A stretch of DNA of 26,545 nt from Candidatus Alcyoniella australis (GTDB lineage Bacteria; Lernaellota; Lernaellaia; JAVCCG01; Alcyoniellaceae): contig JAVCCG010000144.1 of assembly GCA_030765605.1 (NCBI GenBank), forward strand, positions 1-26,545, given 5' to 3'. The notes under the pieces were generated by a model. That model saw nothing but the letters and a program-made list of their open reading frames with translations, ran no database searches and was not told the DNA's origin. Made by a program: the position numbers and the translations under genes. This document shows, in pieces, positions 8,161-25,626 of the stretch. Within the stretch, counting starts at the first letter, position 1; the number at the start of each line of letters is the position of its first letter.

Positions 8161-10191
8161 TTGACCAAAAGAATTAACGCACGCGCGTTTCCGCGGGCTC
8201 TGTTCGCCGTCTGGATGCTCGTGATCATGTTTGCAGGCTGCGACGCGGGCGGTGATGACGACCAGGACAATGGGGATCAGCTACCTGCGCCGCTGCTGAT
8301 CGAACTCGGAGCGGCCCCGGACGAGGTGCCGCTGCTGTGGGGCGTGGACCAGCCGTACCCCACGCGCTTTGATTCAACCCACCGCGATGCCCAGAGTCTC
8401 GACGGCCGCTGGCTGTTCACCGTTGATCCCGACGATCAGGGATTCGATCAAGCCTGGTATTCGCCGCAGTACGACCGCGCGGACTGGGACGGCCTGGAGG
8501 TCCCCGGCTCGTGGAACGCACTGCGGCCGGAGCTGTTTCGCTATCGCGGCCCGGCCTGGTACGCCCGCGGATTCACGGTTGCGCCGCGCGCAGGGCGCAC
8601 GCGCCTGCGTTTCGGCGCGGCATTCCTGCGCGCCCAGGTCTGGGTCAACGGCAGCTACGTGGGTTCGCACAGCGGCGGGTACACGCCGTTTGAGATCGAC
8701 GTTACCGACGTAATCCGGCATGGACAGAACCTGGTGGTGGTCCGCGTGGACAACCGCATCACTCGCGAGACGATCCCCTGCCTGACCCTGGCCAATTCCG
8801 AGGGGCACGGCTGGTATCCCTGGGGCGGTTTGACGCGCAGCGTCGTGCTCGAGCGCGTTGACGAACCCTATGTGGCCAAGGTCGACCCGGGCGCGAGCGT
8901 CGATCCGCAGACCTCTCGCGGATCGATCGACGCGCGGATCGTCTTGCATCGCATGACCCTCGGCTCAACGGATGCGACCGTGCGCGTGCTGGTCGAGGAT
9001 CTCGAGGGCCGGGCTTTGGCCGACTCGGGCCAGGTGGCGCTCGAACCGTTCGAGTCGGGTAGCCGGGCCCTGGCCGCCACGGCAGAGCTGGGCGAGGTCG
9101 AGCTGTGGGACCACAACACGCCGCAGCACCAGTACCAGCTACGGGTGATCGTCGAGTCCGAATCGGGCCGCGACGAGACCGTGAGCCGCTTGGGCTTTCG
9201 CAGCTTCGAGGTGCGCGGACCCGATCTGTATCTCAACGGTCGGCGTGAGTGGTGGCGCGGGATGAACCGCCACGAGGACTGGCCCGGCGTGGGCGCGGCG
9301 CAGAGCGACGAATCGATCGTCAGCGACGTGGCGAGCATGCTCGATCTGGGCGTCAACCACCTGCGGCCCGCGCACTATCCGCCCGACCCGCGCTTCCTCG
9401 ACGCCTGCCGCGACGCGGGAATCAGCCTGACTCTCGAGGTTCCGGTCTACCAACTCGACCTCTGGCAGTTAAACGACGAGGCGCTGCGCCTTGAGGCGCA
9501 GCAGCAGCTGGCCGAGATGATCGAGCGCGACCGCAACAACCCGGCGATCGTCGCCTGGAGCCTGAGCAACGAGATTTGGTCGATGGCTCCATCGGCCGAG
9601 CTGTTCATGTCCGGGATGAACGCCACGGCCAAACGTTTCGATCCTCGGCGGCCGACCATGGTCGTGTTGGTCGGCGACTTGCTCAATTGGTTCCCCGAGG
9701 AATTCGCAACATCCAACGCCGACATCGTCGGCGTGAACATCTACCTGGGCTGGTACAGCGGCACCCTGGGCGCGTGGGGACCGTTTCTCGATTCCCTTGA
9801 GCAGCGGTTCGCCGACCGGCCGCTGGTGATCTCGGAGTTCGGCACCGGCGCGCTGCAAGGGCGTCACCTGCCGGCTTTCCCGACCCAGGACGAGCCGCTG
9901 GACGACCACAGTTACTCTGAGGAGTTCCAGGCCGTGTTCCTGCAAAACGCCCTGGATGCCGTTGTCGCGCGGCCCTGGATCGACGGGACCATGCCTTGGT
10001 CGCTGACCGACTTTCGCTACGAGTGGGTGCCGGACACCGGCGTGCATCCGATTCCGTTTCGCAACCTCAAGGGGCTGCTTTCCCTTGATCGGATTCCCAA
10101 GCTGGGCTACGAATTCGTGCGACTGCAATATCAGGCGCTGGCCGCGGACGAGCTCTGGCCGTTGCCTGGAGATTCACAGGAAAACCGATGA
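8161..10191 (+). CDS. Lipoprotein glycoside hydrolase family 2 (beta-galactosidase/glucuronidase type)
   Basis: The 676-residue protein has a lipoprotein signal peptide with lipobox FAGC (C27). Next come the GH2 jelly-roll sugar-binding domain (about 75-235, with WYARGFTV, VWVNGSYVG and GGYTPFEIDVTD), an immunoglobulin-like domain (about 240-350) and a TIM barrel. The acid/base residue is E471 in WSLSNEIW and the nucleophile is E559 in LVISEFG, so it should be an active retaining enzyme. Substrate cannot be named; beta-glucuronidase or beta-galactosidase are the nearest types. It should be tethered to the cell envelope. TTG 8161 is the only start giving a full signal peptide, though its Shine-Dalgarno is weak. 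The stop overlaps the next ATG by 4 bp. Confidence 0.92.
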   Translation: MTKRINARAFPRALFAVWMLVIMFAGCDAGGDDDQDNGDQLPAPLLIELGAAPDEVPLLWGVDQPYPTRFDSTHRDAQSLDGRWLFTVDPDDQGFDQAWYSPQYDRADWDGLEVPGSWNALRPELFRYRGPAWYARGFTVAPRAGRTRLRFGAAFLRAQVWVNGSYVGSHSGGYTPFEIDVTDVIRHGQNLVVVRVDNRITRETIPCLTLANSEGHGWYPWGGLTRSVVLERVDEPYVAKVDPGASVDPQTSRGSIDARIVLHRMTLGSTDATVRVLVEDLEGRALADSGQVALEPFESGSRALAATAELGEVELWDHNTPQHQYQLRVIVESESGRDETVSRLGFRSFEVRGPDLYLNGRREWWRGMNRHEDWPGVGAAQSDESIVSDVASMLDLGVNHLRPAHYPPDPRFLDACRDAGISLTLEVPVYQLDLWQLNDEALRLEAQQQLAEMIERDRNNPAIVAWSLSNEIWSMAPSAELFMSGMNATAKRFDPRRPTMVVLVGDLLNWFPEEFATSNADIVGVNIYLGWYSGTLGAWGPFLDSLEQRFADRPLVISEFGTGALQGRHLPAFPTQDEPLDDHSYSEEFQAVFLQNALDAVVARPWIDGTMPWSLTDFRYEWVPDTGVHPIPFRNLKGLLSLDRIPKLGYEFVRLQYQALAADELWPLPGDSQENR

Positions 10192-10862
10192 ACAAGACCG
10201 CTTTTATCGCCGGGGCCACGGCCTACACAACGCGCTACGTGCTCGAGCAGCCCAGTGACGTACAATTCCGATTGTGGCTGCGTCCGGACTCGCCGCACTT
10301 CGAGCGGTTCAAGGACGACCCGCGTGTGGTGATCGCGGCGAGCGACGACCAAAAGGCGCTGGCCGACGCAATGCGCGGCTGCCAGGCCGTGCTCTCGCTG
10401 ATCGGCACGTTGCGCTCGCGCTTCAAGGCCGAGAACGTCAACTACGAAAGCGTGGACTTCGGGGTCAACCGCGCGATGATCGACGCTGCGGTGCGCGCCG
10501 GGATCGAGCACTTTTTACTGATGAGTTCTGCGGGCGCCTCGCCGCGCGGCGGCGCGTACCTGGCGGCCAAGTATCGGGCCGAGCAGCACCTGATCGCCTC
10601 GGGCTTGCCGCATACGATCTTCAGACCGGCCTACCTACTGGGCGGCGAGCGGCGCTTCGTGCCCGGCGTGGGCGCGCTGATGGCCGCGCTGGGCAAACTG
10701 CCGGGCCTGGGCGTGCTGATGGACGACTGGCGGCCGATCCCGCTGGAGGTCCTGGCCTGGAACTATCTGCGGCTGATCGAGTACGGCCCGGTCAACGGTG
10801 TGCTGCGCGGCCGCGACCTGTGGCAAGCCTCGCGCGCCGCGTTGACGAAGCCTGGAGAATAA
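10188..10862 (+). CDS. Atypical SDR / NmrA-like NAD(P)-binding protein
   Basis: This 224-residue Rossmann-fold protein resembles NAD(P)H-binding NmrA/atypical SDR proteins: KTAFIAGAT at the N-terminus, GCQAVLSLIGT, then FLLMSSAGASP and a YxxxK pair at Y124 and K128. The usual GATGxxG dinucleotide motif reads GATAYTT (G9 to T15), so its second and third glycines are replaced by A12 and T15. Binding of a normal cofactor is therefore uncertain. The ATG overlaps the stop of the glycoside hydrolase (ATGA) and is preceded by AGGAAAA, so the two are translationally coupled. Substrate and pathway are unknown. Confidence 0.8.
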   Translation: MNKTAFIAGATAYTTRYVLEQPSDVQFRLWLRPDSPHFERFKDDPRVVIAASDDQKALADAMRGCQAVLSLIGTLRSRFKAENVNYESVDFGVNRAMIDAAVRAGIEHFLLMSSAGASPRGGAYLAAKYRAEQHLIASGLPHTIFRPAYLLGGERRFVPGVGALMAALGKLPGLGVLMDDWRPIPLEVLAWNYLRLIEYGPVNGVLRGRDLWQASRAALTKPGE

Positions 10863-10899: not shown

Positions 10900-13800
10900 A
10901 TGCCCAAGTTGGAGCAAATCAAGAACGTACTGGTCATCGGCTCGGGTCCGACGGTGGTCGGCCAGGCCTGCGAGTTCGACTACGCCGCGTTGCAGGCCTG
11001 CCAGGCGTTGCGCGCCCACGGCTGCTGCGTGACGCTGCTCGAGTCCAATCCGGCCACGCGCTCGTCCGACATCGACATCACCGACCGCACTTATCTCGAG
11101 CCGGTCACGGCCGAGGTCTGCCGGCGGATAATCGAACGCGAACAGCCCGATTCACTGCTGCCCACGGCCGGCGGCCAGACCGGGCTCAACCTGTCTTACG
11201 AGTTGGCGCGTAGCGGCGTGCTGGACGAGTTCGGCGTATCGCTGCTCGGAGTGCCGGCCGAGGCCATCGAACTTTCCGAGGACCGCGAACAGTTCAAGGG
11301 CGCGATGGAGCGCATCGGCTTGCGGGTTCCGGACTCGGGCGTGGCGCGCTCGGTGGAGCAGGGGATGGAGATCGGCCTGCGCATCGGCTTCCCGCTGGTG
11401 ATCAAGCCCGCATTTACCCTCGGCGGCATCGGCGGCGCCACGGTCTACAACCGCGACGAGCTGTCCGAGGCGCTGGTGCAGGCGATCCACGTCAGCCCGG
11501 TGGGCCAGACGTTGGTTGAGCGCTATTTACGCGGCTGGCGCGAGTTCGAGTGCTCGGCGCTGATCGATCGCAACGGGACCGTGCTGGTCGCGGTGGTGAT
11601 GGAGGACCTCGATCCGATGGGCGTACACACCGGCGACTCGGCTGTGGTCGCGCCGGCGATCACCCTGGGTCCCCAACGCCACGCCGAGCTGATCGAGCTG
11701 TGCGGCCGCGCCCTGGGCGGACTGAAGTTGACCGGCTGCGCGGCGAGCATCCAGTTCGCCCTTGATCCAGATGGCGAAGAGGCGCTGCTGATCGAGGTCA
11801 ATACCCGTTCGACGCGCAGTTCGACCCTGGCGATCAAGGCCACGGGCCTGCCGATCGCACGCATCTCGGCCGAGCTGAGTTTGGGCTTCACACTCGAGGA
11901 ACTGCTCGGCGAGCTGCCGCCAAAGGGCTCGGCGCTGCTTTGCCCCGATGCGGGCCACTATGCAATCAAGCTGCCGCGCTTCGCCGCCAACCGTTTTCCG
12001 GGCCTCAGCCGACTGCTCGACACCTCGATGAAGAGCGTGGGCGAGGCTGTGGCCGTGGGCGACTCGTTTAACGAGGCGCTGCAAAAAGCGATCCGCGCCA
12101 TCGAGATCAACCGCGCCGGGTTGGGCTGCGACGGCAAGGATCTGCGGCCCGAGCAACTCGACGACGAGGCGTTGCGCTCGCAGCTGATCAATCCCAACGA
12201 CGAACGATTGTTCTATTTGCGAATTGCCCTGGGGCGCGGGATGAGCGTCGATCAGGCGGCGCAGCTGTGCGGCATGCGGCCCGAGGTGATCGAGAACATC
12301 AAGGCGATCAACGACGCCTGCGACGAGCTGGCAGGACGATCCCTGGACACACTGGACGCGCAACGGCTGCTCGAGCTCAAGGCCGAGGGTTTCTCCGATT
12401 TGCAACTGGCGTATCTGCTGGGAGCGACCGAGGAGCAGGTCCGGCAGCGCCGGCACGAGCTGGGCGTGGTTCCAGAATTTAAGCGACTCGCGATCAGCCC
12501 GTGCTACGAGGGCTTTGCCAGCCGCTATTCGACATATGCCCGCGGCTCGCAGCCCACTGAGATGGACGAGGGCCGCGACAAGGTGCTGGTCCTGGGCCCG
12601 GGCCCCAACCGCATCGGCCAGGGGATCCAGTACGACCACAGCACAGCCCACGCCCTGGCGGCCCTGGCCGGGCTGAACCTGCGCGGCCTGATCGTCAACT
12701 CCAACCCCGAGGCGGTGAGCACCGCGCCGATCGGCGCCCATACGCTGTACCTGGAGCCGTTGAGTCTCGAGCACGTGATCGAGGTCGTGCGCGCCGAGCA
12801 ACCCCTGGGTGTGCTGGCGCAGTTCGGCGGCCAGTCGGCCCTCGAGCTGGCGGCGGCCCTGGATCAAGCCGGGGTGCGGCTGCTGGGCACGCCCGCCGAG
12901 GCGTTCGCCCTGACCCGCGATCACAAGCGGCTGTGCGATCTACTGACGGAGCTGGGGCTTAACCGGCCGGACAACGGCACGGCTCACGATTTGGAATCGG
13001 CCAAGGCCCTGGCGCTGAGCATCGGATACCCGGTGGTGGTGCGTCCGTACTACGCCCTGGGCGGCCGAGCGATGCAGATCGTCTACAACGAATCGCAGCT
13101 TACGCACTTCATCGGCTACGCCTCGCGCGGCGAGGGGATCGGGCAGATCCTGGTCGACCGCTTCCTGGACTACGCGGTGGAGGTCGACGTCGACGCGATT
13201 TGCGACGGCGTGGACGTGTTCATCGGCGGTATCGTCGAGCATATCGAGGAGGCCGGTGTGCACTCCGGCGACTCGGCCTGCGTGCTGCCGCCGCGCACGC
13301 TGTCCTTGGCGATGACCGAGGAGCTGTGCCGCCAGACCCGCGAGCTGGCGCTGAAGCTCGGCGTGATCGGACTGATCAACGTGCAGTTCGCGATCAAGGG
13401 CGAGACGATCTACGTGCTCGGGGTGACCCCGCGCGCCAGCCAGGCCGTGCCCTTCGTGACCAAGGCCACCGGAGCCCCGCTGGCGCAGCTGGCGGTGAAG
13501 GTGATCATGGGCGCGAGTCTACGGGAGCTGGGCTGCCTGGAGACGCCGCAGGTCAAGCACGTGGCGGTCAGGGAGGCGATCTTCCCCTTTGTGCGCTTCC
13601 CGGGAGTCGATCCGCGGCTGGGCCCGGAGATGAAGTCGGTGGGCGAGGTGATCGGCATTGACAGCGCTTACGGTATGGCGTTCATCAAGTCCCAGCAGGC
13701 GGCCGGGCAAATGCTGCCGACCTCGGGCCGCGCGTTCTTCAGCCTCAAGGATCAGGATAAGGGCGCGCTGGTGAGCATGGCCAAACGTCTGGTGCAGATG

Positions 13801-14124
13801 GGTTTCGAAATTATCGCCACCGAGGGCACGGCCGACGTGTTTCAGCGCCACGAGATCCCGGTGACCACGGTGCTCAAGTTTTCCCAGGGGCGTCCCAATT
13901 GCGTGGACCTGCTGATGAGCGGCGGGATCGACCTGATTATCAATACGCCTTCCCAGCGTCAGGCCCAGGGCGACGAGGGGCAGATTCGCACCAAGGCCTA
14001 TGCCTACGGCGTGCCGCTGATCACCACGGTCAGCGGGGCCTACGCCGCGGTCAACGGCATCGAGGCCCTGCGCGGCAAACCGCAGCTCGAGGTGCGTAGC
14101 CTGCAGGAATATTTGAAAGGCTAA
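10900..14124 (+). CDS. carB: Carbamoyl-phosphate synthase large subunit, divergent in the second ATP-grasp domain
   Basis: The protein has 1074 residues and keeps E. coli CarB numbering exactly. Both ATP-grasp halves, the allosteric linker and the C-terminal MGS-like domain (from about 940) are present. CarB uses two ATP to turn bicarbonate and ammonia into carbamoyl phosphate for arginine and pyrimidine synthesis. In the first site R129, E215, H243, Q285, E299 and N301 are kept, with K169 for R169. In the second, carbamate-phosphorylating site E761, R715, H788 and Q829 remain, but R675 is H, E841 is G and N843 is T (LGVTPR for the usual IEVNPR). The central VDTCAAEF motif is also replaced. 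No carA is nearby. It may be a divergent but working enzyme or a paralogue with changed activity. ATG 10900 follows a GGGA site 5 nt away. Confidence 0.88.
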   Translation: MPKLEQIKNVLVIGSGPTVVGQACEFDYAALQACQALRAHGCCVTLLESNPATRSSDIDITDRTYLEPVTAEVCRRIIEREQPDSLLPTAGGQTGLNLSYELARSGVLDEFGVSLLGVPAEAIELSEDREQFKGAMERIGLRVPDSGVARSVEQGMEIGLRIGFPLVIKPAFTLGGIGGATVYNRDELSEALVQAIHVSPVGQTLVERYLRGWREFECSALIDRNGTVLVAVVMEDLDPMGVHTGDSAVVAPAITLGPQRHAELIELCGRALGGLKLTGCAASIQFALDPDGEEALLIEVNTRSTRSSTLAIKATGLPIARISAELSLGFTLEELLGELPPKGSALLCPDAGHYAIKLPRFAANRFPGLSRLLDTSMKSVGEAVAVGDSFNEALQKAIRAIEINRAGLGCDGKDLRPEQLDDEALRSQLINPNDERLFYLRIALGRGMSVDQAAQLCGMRPEVIENIKAINDACDELAGRSLDTLDAQRLLELKAEGFSDLQLAYLLGATEEQVRQRRHELGVVPEFKRLAISPCYEGFASRYSTYARGSQPTEMDEGRDKVLVLGPGPNRIGQGIQYDHSTAHALAALAGLNLRGLIVNSNPEAVSTAPIGAHTLYLEPLSLEHVIEVVRAEQPLGVLAQFGGQSALELAAALDQAGVRLLGTPAEAFALTRDHKRLCDLLTELGLNRPDNGTAHDLESAKALALSIGYPVVVRPYYALGGRAMQIVYNESQLTHFIGYASRGEGIGQILVDRFLDYAVEVDVDAICDGVDVFIGGIVEHIEEAGVHSGDSACVLPPRTLSLAMTEELCRQTRELALKLGVIGLINVQFAIKGETIYVLGVTPRASQAVPFVTKATGAPLAQLAVKVIMGASLRELGCLETPQVKHVAVREAIFPFVRFPGVDPRLGPEMKSVGEVIGIDSAYGMAFIKSQQAAGQMLPTSGRAFFSLKDQDKGALVSMAKRLVQMGFEIIATEGTADVFQRHEIPVTTVLKFSQGRPNCVDLLMSGGIDLIINTPSQRQAQGDEGQIRTKAYAYGVPLITTVSGAYAAVNGIEALRGKPQLEVRSLQEYLKG

Positions 14125-22750: not shown

Positions 22751-22817
22751 TAGGGAGGTGCCTAGTTAAAAAGGGCAAATCAATCGAATTCCATAAATGA
22801 AGACAAAGGAGAAAGAA

Positions 22818-23567
22818 GTGAAAAAAATAGTGCTATTTTTAGTCGTGATATCTTTGAGTTGTCTTTGTAGCACTTGTAAGCAGAAATCTTCCAATGAAAC
22901 CGTGGTTCCGGCACAGAAAATGGTCCAAAACGAGTATCGCCAAGACGACATCGAAAATCTTGCTTCAGGGGCTGAAGTAGAAACAATTGAAAGCAATTCA
23001 GGTATATCTGAAGAATTACAGGAAGTTTCAGAAAACAAAAATTCTAGCCAAGATGCTATAGAAGCTGCTAGTAAAGAGAAGGATATTTTTGCAGCAGCAC
23101 TGAATAATGATTTGCTGGCAGTAAAAGGGTTTCTTTTAAATGGCGTAAGTCCCAACAGAAAAGAGCCATCTGGTGGTTGCGTGTTGATGGTTGCAGCACA
23201 AGAAGGGAATTTAGATATAGTCAAATTACTAGTTGAAAAAGGAGCGGTCGTTGATTGTAAAGACAATACAGGGTGGACTCCCCTCGGTCAGGCGGCTAGC
23301 GGGGGTCATTTAGATGTATGCAAATATTTAGTAGAAAACGGGGCAAACGTAAATGCAAAGGACAAAACGGGTTGGACGGTACTTCACGCTGCGGCTATAA
23401 ATGGACAACTGGAGCCAACAAAGTTTCTTATCGAGAACGGTGCAAGGACTAATGTCAAGGCAGGCAACGGCTGGAGTCCACTTGATGCTTGTAGGTCGCC
23501 AATGGGGCAAACAAAACCTCAATGGCACGAAGTAGTGAAAATTCTTCAGGAACACGGAGGAAGTTAA
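22818..23567 (+). CDS. Exported ankyrin-repeat protein
   Basis: The 249-residue protein has an N-terminal signal peptide with three cysteines (C15, C17, C20) and no canonical lipobox. A low-complexity acidic linker runs to about residue 88, followed by four to five ankyrin repeats to the C-terminus (for example GWTPLGQAASGGHLDVCKYL and GWTVLHAAAINGQLEPTKFL). Ankyrin repeats bind proteins; the partner is unknown, and location would be the periplasm or cell surface. GTG 22818 is chosen because GGAG lies 6 nt upstream and it gives a standard signal peptide; the in-frame ATG at 22797 has no ribosome site. The gene is clearly richer in A+T than the backbone, which suggests transfer. Confidence 0.85.
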   Translation: MKKIVLFLVVISLSCLCSTCKQKSSNETVVPAQKMVQNEYRQDDIENLASGAEVETIESNSGISEELQEVSENKNSSQDAIEAASKEKDIFAAALNNDLLAVKGFLLNGVSPNRKEPSGGCVLMVAAQEGNLDIVKLLVEKGAVVDCKDNTGWTPLGQAASGGHLDVCKYLVENGANVNAKDKTGWTVLHAAAINGQLEPTKFLIENGARTNVKAGNGWSPLDACRSPMGQTKPQWHEVVKILQEHGGS

Positions 23568-23633
23568 AGTATTTTCCGGAGACGGCATATAGAAATCGAA
23601 ATTTATTATTATATTAATACAATAGCCAGATAC

Positions 23634-23792
23634 CGACAAATTCAGCCCGCGCACCAAGATTCTTCGTCTGCGGCTCAGGATGACGGAAAGCGAAGGATAA
23701 CTAGCACTTACTAGGCCACACACCGCCCGCTGGGCGTCATTCTGAACAAAGTGCAGAATCTACTTTCGTAGAGCTAAATTTCAGCCCGGCGG
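23634..23792. repeat. 159-bp repeat with conserved inverted arms, copy A
   Basis: It aligns without gaps to 25748-25906 (about 124 of 159 positions identical by hand count). The outer blocks are near 85% alike and the middle 38 bp near 50%. The arms CTCAGGATGACG (23674-23685) and CGTCATTCTGAA (23735-23746) can pair, as can AGATTCT (23657-23663) and AGAATCT (23755-23761). A small hairpin CGCCC-GCT-GGGCG is at 23724-23736. It ends 9 bp from the stop of the minus-strand remnant. Confidence 0.88.
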
Positions 23793-23801
23793 GAAATGAG
23801 G

Positions 23802-23972
23802 TCAGGCGCGGGTAATCGCCTCAACGGCCGTGGCGAGTTTGGCATTGGGTTGTGAGAGCATTTCGTCCCACAGGTCGTATTCGAAAAAGTCGACGTGCAG
23901 GCCGCGGCGGGTCAAGGTCCATCCGTTGGAACGGTCGAAACTCGAGAGAGTGCCGGGGACACGAAATGTAAA
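23802..23972 (-). pseudogene. Remnant of the 3' end of an unidentified GC-rich gene
   Basis: On the minus strand a frame ending with TGA at 23802-23804 is open back to a TGA at 23973-23975. It reads as ordinary protein: FDRSNGWTLTRRGLHVDFFE, then YDLWDEMLSQPNAKLATAVE and AITRA. It has no start codon context and begins at the change from GC-rich to AT-rich sequence near 23960. About 50 codons of a lost gene therefore remain. I do not recognise the family. Its third-position G+C is high, as in the backbone and unlike its AT-rich neighbours. Confidence 0.6.
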
Positions 23973-24021
23973 TCAGGGGAAATTATACTTGTCTATATAG
24001 TCTGAATAGAGAAAATTATGA

Positions 24022-25626
24022 TCAAGATATTCGTTTGGTTCGGCCCAAGGCCACGAAATATAACTCGTCAAACCATTTCCGTAGTTTGGACAACTGCTTG
24101 TATTTGGGATCGAATGTACGGCGAATCCTCCGGTATAAACTCAGCAAGCGCGGGAGCCGAAGCGGCCAGCTCTGGGTCTTACGCACTATTTCTCGCTGGA
24201 AGTACCAGGAATGCAGCCATCTTCGCTGCAAGACCGCGCTTTCGTCAAGGCCGCCTATTTCTTCGTAATGTATATTTTCCCGCGTGAAAAGAGTGGGGCC
24301 GATTTGATCGATCAATTTGATTTTAAAATTATCTGGATTATAGAATAGCGGCGATGCCCGCACCAATTTCAGCGGACACACTTCAACAATGCAACCGTAC
24401 TTCATTTTTATTGCGGCGGCATCTCGGGCTACATCAATGATGGTCGTTGTTTTTTCAAAGGGCCATCCGATGATGAATGAGCATTTCTGATTTATTCCAC
24501 ATTTCGCTGCGGTTTTTATTGTTGACAATGCCTGCCGACCGTCAAATGGCTTGTTGATGCTACGCAAAATAGTATTATCCGTACTCTCAATACCCCAGGA
24601 GACAAAGTCGCATCCAGACCTTTTCATTTTTCGGAGCAAGGCTTCTGTTATATGGTTGGTTATCGCATAGCTTTTCCACTTAAGATCGCTACCTGCAAAA
24701 TGGTCGCAAAACGCCTCGAGCAATTTGGGATTGTTGTTGATTGCCGAGTCGTAAAAAAGAAAATGGTTGCTGTCATATTCTTTTCGTAGCTGATCTATCT
24801 CGGCGGTTATCTTACTTATTGATTTGTACTCCAACCGCGACACGCTGCGATGGGAGCAAAAAGAACAATTTTGCGAACAACCACGAGAGAAACGATATGG
24901 CAGCCAGCACGCACCGTTGCTGTCCGTATATTGCCGAAGAGACAGACCGGCGAAGGATGCCGGCGGCTCGCTCTCGATATGTGAATCATCAGAAGCGCTG
25001 GTTACAACCTGACCGTTCTCTCTGTATATAATGCCCGGCGTACCCTGAATGGGGGCGCCATGGAAAAGATGGTCTGCAATACCATTGAGCGCCGCAGGTC
25101 CGTCAGGCTGGATGCAGAGGAAATCCACAGTATGTAAAATTTCCGCTATTGCTTCGGGAGACGACGCCTGAGCAAGAACGATAAAGGGACCGCCAAAAAT
25201 AATTTGTATATCCTCATTATACCACTTGCAGATCATTGCCAATAGATAGCTGGAACGCAAAGCGCTTTGTGACATGATTGTGAAGCCCACAGCCGCGATA
25301 TCGTCGAAATATTTTAAAAAAAGATTTTTAGTTATGCGCTTCTCTTCGCTGGAGAGGGAATGGAAATCAATTTGCGCATTCGATCTCAGGCCTTCCAGAT
25401 ATTGATCGAGCAATGCAAGCTCGGTTTTATCAAACTTTGGCAACCCATTATTTAGATATACCAATCGATTGAAATCGATTATCTGCGTGTTAATATCGGG
25501 GAAGTTATTTTTCAGGCTTGAGGCGAGCACTCCAACGCCATAGGGCAAGGTCGCGGACCCAAAGAGATCATTGGTATCGGATCGTGTAAACCTTCTTGAT
25601 GGTTGAATCAGTGCAATGTTCTTCAT
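24022..25626 (-). CDS. Radical SAM protein, B12-binding-domain type (class B-like)
   Basis: The 534-residue protein has an N-terminal Rossmann-like region (about 1-190, with LPYGVGVLASSLK and IIFGGPFIVLA) as in cobalamin-binding-domain radical SAM proteins. A radical SAM core follows with the CxxxCxxC cluster motif C250, C254, C257, then GIESTDNTILRSINKP and SFIIGWPFEKTTTI typical of the barrel. I saw no DxHxxG, so base-off cobalamin binding through His is not supported. The reaction is unknown. ATG 25626 is preceded by AGGA 5 nt away on the minus strand. Base composition is much richer in A+T than the backbone. The gene stands alone between two copies of the 159-bp repeat, which suggests acquisition as a unit. 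Confidence 0.9.
   Translation of the reverse strand: MKNIALIQPSRRFTRSDTNDLFGSATLPYGVGVLASSLKNNFPDINTQIIDFNRLVYLNNGLPKFDKTELALLDQYLEGLRSNAQIDFHSLSSEEKRITKNLFLKYFDDIAAVGFTIMSQSALRSSYLLAMICKWYNEDIQIIFGGPFIVLAQASSPEAIAEILHTVDFLCIQPDGPAALNGIADHLFHGAPIQGTPGIIYRENGQVVTSASDDSHIESEPPASFAGLSLRQYTDSNGACWLPYRFSRGCSQNCSFCSHRSVSRLEYKSISKITAEIDQLRKEYDSNHFLFYDSAINNNPKLLEAFCDHFAGSDLKWKSYAITNHITEALLRKMKRSGCDFVSWGIESTDNTILRSINKPFDGRQALSTIKTAAKCGINQKCSFIIGWPFEKTTTIIDVARDAAAIKMKYGCIVEVCPLKLVRASPLFYNPDNFKIKLIDQIGPTLFTRENIHYEEIGGLDESAVLQRRWLHSWYFQREIVRKTQSWPLRLPRLLSLYRRIRRTFDPKYKQLSKLRKWFDELYFVALGRTKRIS

Follow-up and report, generated by a model that had tools for sequence, protein, structure and literature searches.

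A CarB-like paralogue of Candidatus Alcyoniella australis that has probably lost carbamoyl phosphate synthesis

Background

What is left for a CarB protein to do when the site that should phosphorylate carbamate has lost its metal ligands? Few enzymes of central metabolism are conserved as strictly as CarB, and a copy that is maintained although its second site no longer works would provide a natural test of its two halves and of its 96 Å tunnel apart from each other. The question is raised by a gene in the window analysed here, the whole stretch of 26,545 nucleotides of contig JAVCCG010000144.1 from the genome assembly GCA_030765605.1 of Candidatus Alcyoniella australis. The two ATP sites of carbamoyl phosphate synthetase (CPS) have separate tasks: carboxyphosphate and carbamate arise at site 1, and carbamate receives its phosphate at site 2 (PMC6022934). 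A first-pass annotation, made from the DNA alone, had proposed that the second site of the encoded protein has either been rebuilt or belongs to a paralogue that acts beside a normal carB. No paper describing divergent CarB paralogues or a bacterial CPS of the ammonia type was found in a literature search.

Results and discussion

The CarB-like gene and its neighbourhood

The gene occupies positions 10900..14124 of the forward strand and encodes a CarB-like protein of 1074 amino acids, here designated WIN. It begins with ATG, contains no internal stop codon and is preceded closely by a ribosome site of the AGGGA type. Pfam, NCBIfam and fold comparisons agreed on the CarB domain order, with two CPSase ATP-grasp halves, an oligomerisation domain and an MGS domain in one chain, and the NCBIfam model TIGR01369 was passed narrowly (1044.9 bits, cut-off 1027). 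The gene of an NAD(P)H-binding (NmrA-like) protein (10188..10862, forward strand) ends 37 bases upstream and is possibly co-transcribed with the WIN gene; its own start overlaps the 3' end of a GH2-family gene (8161-10191), and a convergent membrane protein gene abuts the 3' end of the WIN gene. The neighbouring GH2 and NmrA-like genes provided no clue to function.

Elsewhere in the window, two genes at positions 22797-25626 were named by reading as ankyrin-repeat-like and radical-SAM/B12-like. Their G+C content of 0.42-0.46 is far below that of the rest of the contig and their codon usage is very different, and both were likely acquired horizontally.

Loss of ligands from the second ATP site

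The E. coli CarB numbering, which had been said to hold one to one, aligned without gaps at the three positions in question, and the substitutions were confirmed at codon level as R675H (CAC, 12922..12924), E841G (GGG, 13420..13422) and N843T (ACC, 13426..13428). Each of these codons can be reached by one base change from a codon commonly used for the original residue. The proposed check whether relatives share the changes gave a negative answer: Arg, Glu and Asn are unchanged in all 68 other CarBs aligned with WIN (E. coli CarB and 67 fetched sequences; 69 including WIN) as well as in 12 CarBs fetched later, which retained all catalytic residues of both ATP sites. The departure of WIN is thus well beyond chance.

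Alignment also confirmed that R715, E761, H788 and Q829 are present in site 2, together with N827 and R845. Accordingly, Q829 is the one retained metal-ATP ligand of three, E841 and N843 being gone, and the wider site has in addition lost E673, F678, S717, V719, R848 and T849. As neither position 841 nor 843 offers a substitute acid or amide, the idea of a rebuilt second site found no support in the alignment. Altogether, the second ATP-grasp domain (residues 673-935; 12916..13704, forward strand) has lost 12 of 51 family-invariant residues, compared with 0-3 in other diverged CarBs. Nine of these 12 fall in the ATP/metal-ligand segments 673-678, 715-725 and 841-849, which corresponds to 9/17 invariants lost in the ligand segments versus 3/34 elsewhere in the domain (Fisher p 0.001, with the segments chosen post hoc). 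The identity of 0.495 in this domain is similar to that of the CarBs at L082, L034, L064 and L029, which lost 0-3 of the 51 invariants; judged from the alignment, the domain without metal ligands is otherwise just as diverged as several working CarBs.

The first half, the tunnels and the linker

In the N-terminal half (residues 1-400; 10900..12099, forward strand), the pattern is opposite to that of the second ATP-grasp domain, since metal ligands are retained and pocket and tunnel positions are altered. Site 1 keeps R129, E215, H243, Q285, E299 and N301, as had been claimed, along with R303. It is not intact, however: seven of nine carboxyphosphate-site residues are retained, and the substitutions R169K and N283S, which had been missed, may already cripple the site. 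Further changes of the first half are I18T, I20V, C232V, N236D, G280C, G281A, P302T, A309T and S312I. For the tunnels, we take the relevant E. coli positions to be C232, A251 and A314 at the gate and the glutamates E25, E383, E577, E604 and E916. The tunnel or near-tunnel changes of WIN comprise C232V, A309T, S312I and E577Q, the last of which affects a carbamate-tunnel glutamate position across the interface from the first half. It belongs to the strongly diverged pre-ATP-grasp part of the second half (residues about 554-672; 12559..12915, forward strand), which also carries T605A and D609A. Work on CPS1 has named the equivalents of the gate in the ammonia tunnel and of the glutamates in the carbamate tunnel (PMC4655335).

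Divergence is broad across the N-terminal half. The terminal branch of WIN amounts to 4.18 changes per column for residues 1-400 (median of the other sequences 0.26), 1.03 for residues 673-1073 (median 0.47, others up to 1.4) and 2.26 over the full length (median 0.35). Likewise, the mean identity of WIN to other CarBs, set against the mean among those CarBs, is 0.41 versus 0.63 in the first ATP-grasp domain, 0.45 versus 0.67 in the second pre-ATP part and 0.50 versus 0.56 in the second ATP-grasp domain.

The oligomerisation domain (residues about 401-553; 12100..12558, forward strand) has the sequence AISPCYEGF in place of the linker motif VDTCAAEF. The loss of this motif had been reported correctly, but it carries little weight on its own because another carB of the same genome, on C90, also lacks VDTCAAEF and has PVSGAD.

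Other carB and carA genes of the genome

The genome is a draft of 157 contigs with a completeness of 98%. A search of the kind proposed earlier detected three CarBs, namely those on C17 (59% identity to E. coli CarB) and C90 (52%) and WIN. The proteins on C17 and C90 keep every catalytic residue, and the sole carA of the genome, on C104, has C269, H353 and E355 intact. The statement that carA is absent thus applies to the neighbourhood of WIN and not to the genome, whereas the suggestion of a paralogue beside a normal carB is supported by two such genes. The C90 CarB belongs to a second clade that is common to one class-mate and two other phyla; its gene (L036 6858-10064, forward strand) has no carA nearby and adjoins genes read as encoding ferredoxin-like proteins and a 2-hydroxyacyl-CoA dehydratase-like protein. 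Contamination was considered and rejected: the uvrA gene on the WIN contig is single-copy and closest to those of class-mates, and the contig therefore belongs to the genome.

No orthologue of WIN was detected among the complete CarBs of six class-mates, in which some CarBs are fragments. Nor was an orthologue with more than 50% identity detected in class or phylum mates, a phylum of 195 genomes, 395 genomes of a large phylum, or genome, viral and plasmid collections; in the two large phylum searches, matches were listed at E <1e-300 and residues were checked in the fetched loci.

Probable origin in a clade with triad-less CarA

The best matches of WIN outside its own genome have 47-50% identity, come from several phyla and in many cases carry the gate substitution C232T. 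All six C232T CarBs checked adjoin a CarA that lacks C269 (G or S instead), H353 and E355, encoded at L038 9792-10970 (reverse strand), L108 420-1487, L109 426-1493, L110 395-1480, L112 5002-6096 and L116 332-1471. These six genes span at least two phylum-level groups. More than 40 CarBs with C232, on the other hand, adjoin CarAs with the triad, the few partial exceptions being L033, L047 and also L068, where the gate residue was not read. Each of the six C232T genomes also encodes another CarA, in which C269 is kept; the full triad is seen in five, and in the sixth (L122) the match did not cover the gene end. Going by these residues, the pairs of C232T CarB and triad-less CarA look like a bacterial ammonia-type CPS that is run beside a normal one. 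The association is a separate lead and better replicated than the case of WIN, which rests on one example.

In a tree that included the C232T members, WIN grouped with this six-member clade (SH-aLRT 98) on a long branch, and the rare residues E278T, T279G, C192L, A155G and Y1040L are common to both. An alternative tree with WIN beside the C17 CarB of its own genome fell short by 31 log units (AU p 0.064). Placement of WIN in the C232T clade is consequently regarded as probable. An earlier tree had suggested L038 as the specific sister of WIN, and wider sampling replaced it by the six-member clade; a tree of the C-terminal part was uninformative, since the partners of WIN shifted from L009 and L038 to L016 and L020. 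WIN has no adjacent CarA of the triad-less type, the one CarA of the genome having its C-H-E triad intact, and it looks like an orphaned member of the ammonia-type clade.

What the protein may do

Since two of the three metal ligands of site 2, R675, one carbamate-tunnel glutamate, the gate cysteine and a cognate CarA are all missing, WIN very probably does not make carbamoyl phosphate. As far as residues and their conservation can tell, it is probably a maintained paralogue that does something else. The reading that we prefer combines an ATP-grasp enzyme with one remaining site and descent from the ammonia-type clade, and for the two jointly we would give a probability of about one half. Its ancestor would have been the large subunit of a bacterial ammonia-type CPS that was later orphaned of its CarA. 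Site 1, with its metal ligands retained and its pocket remodelled, could use ATP to activate bicarbonate or a different carboxylate, while site 2 would at most bind a nucleotide, carbamate phosphorylation being lost; the C-terminal half would then serve as scaffold and effector sensor, with an MGS domain that may still sense a nucleotide. The product might be an acyl phosphate of a new kind, carbamate that is wasted or, in a regulatory pseudo-subunit, nothing. The full version, in which the carboxylate activated at site 1 is a new one (or is bicarbonate, with no onward transfer), the second half is a nucleotide-sensing pseudo-kinase domain and the ancestral ammonia-type CPS had already shed its glutaminase, is put forward tentatively.

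A possible, though doubtful, alternative is that WIN performs no catalysis at all and joins a normal CarB through its oligomerisation and MGS domains, relaying nucleotide or ornithine signals. The MGS domain (residues 936-1074; 13705..14121, forward strand) evolves at a normal rate, its mean identity being 0.38 both for WIN and among the other CarBs. We take the nucleotide-effector positions of E. coli CarB to be 948, 954, 974, 977, 993, 1015, 1016 and 1017. WIN retains S948, K954, T974, T977, K993, N1015 and T1016 and deviates at the freely variable position 1017; E783, D791, S792 and T1042 are likewise retained. The catalytic residues of both halves, taken as one set, were lost at the background rate (5/19 versus 50/205), which as a residue count fits the loss of all catalysis equally well as a loss confined to site 2. 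The full predicted fold is also in line with a pseudo-subunit. Against it, the oligomerisation domain has diverged rather more than is usual (0.31 versus 0.40), the normal CarBs of the genome are just 41-45% identical to WIN, which renders mixed oligomers uncertain, and the metal ligands of site 1 are retained without need.

It is unlikely that WIN is a relic, a CarB once of the ammonia type which lost its CarA partner, was recently inactivated and is now drifting. The missing partner, the very long branch and losses that are common to no relative would fit such a history, as would the deviation of WIN at 50 of 210 near-invariant columns, where the next worst sequence deviates at 8. The 1074 codons are nevertheless free of stops and frameshifts, with a GC3 of 0.87 and a codon usage that correlates at r 0.982 with that of the other genes of the genome. 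A simple simulation of neutral change put 4.5 stops on average into the frame after 7% divergence; neutral drift soon brings stops, and most of the divergence of WIN therefore arose under selection. The uneven pattern, with the MGS domain and the bulk of the second ATP-grasp domain normal, also argues against drift. Compensated frameshifts were rejected as a source of the changes, as no convincing stretch of WIN reads better in another frame. The earlier verdict that the gene is not simply decaying accordingly holds for nearly all of its history. Purifying selection is not directly measurable where no orthologue with the same changes has been found, and for the same reason a recent loss of function, i.e. 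a recent pseudogene, is possible. The structure prediction gave a complete CarB (pLDDT 88.8; Z 51.3 to 1BXR over 1058 residues, 1.7 Å). It was made with an alignment of CarBs, for which reason pLDDT and fold do not test activity; the model shows an intact predicted scaffold and says nothing of activity.

That WIN is instead a working CPS, with substitute ligands in its second site, appears very improbable. The retained Q829, H788, E761, R715, N827 and R845 and the conserved bulk of the second ATP-grasp domain speak for it, but two metal ligands, R675, E673, F678, S717, V719, R848 and T849 were lost together, the carbamate tunnel carries E577Q, the CarA partner is missing, and such an enzyme would be unnecessary in a genome with two intact CarBs. 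A sequencing or assembly artefact, conceivable in a draft of 157 contigs, can practically be dismissed in view of three separate single-base changes, some 47 other unique invariant losses, the absence of a frameshift signature and a genome-like composition and codon usage.

Comparison with other carbamoyl phosphate synthetases

WIN matches the E. coli type of CarB (PDB 1BXR/1JDB) in length, order of domains and predicted fold (Z 51, 42% identity) and shares the site-1 metal ligands and the MGS effector residues. It differs by R675H, E841G, N843T, R169K, N283S, C232V and E577Q, by the lack of an adjacent carA and by the presence of two normal CarBs in the genome. The CarA/CarB pairs with C232T (six loci, e.g. 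L038, L108 and L110) are closest to WIN by tree and rare residues, and the gate residue is altered in both; in contrast to WIN, their CarBs have every residue of both ATP sites and still have their CarA.

Vertebrate CPS I is an ammonia-type enzyme with a Cys to Ser change in its glutaminase domain (PMC4655335). This uncoupling from glutamine is analogous to the one that triad loss would imply in the relatives of WIN. The fold of CPS I is similar to that of WIN (Z 47.5) with only 32% identity, yet CPS I keeps both ATP sites in one chain and presumably has an independent origin. A route through CPSs with a dead glutaminase, if true, would provide bacterial counterparts to vertebrate CPS I, of which no description was found in the literature searched.

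Two further loci were recorded. A sequence labelled Syntrophomonas sp. (L068 4592-5734, forward strand), outside the C232T set examined, encodes a CarA without the glutaminase Cys and His, which are replaced by G and D. In genome G043, a carB without carA (L105 21-4595, forward strand) lies 12 bases downstream of a gene read as glutamate dehydrogenase, an arrangement which suggests that this enzyme supplies ammonia to the CarB. The same CarB was placed near the C90 type of Candidatus Alcyoniella australis in the full-length tree and elsewhere in the C-terminal tree, and may be a mosaic.
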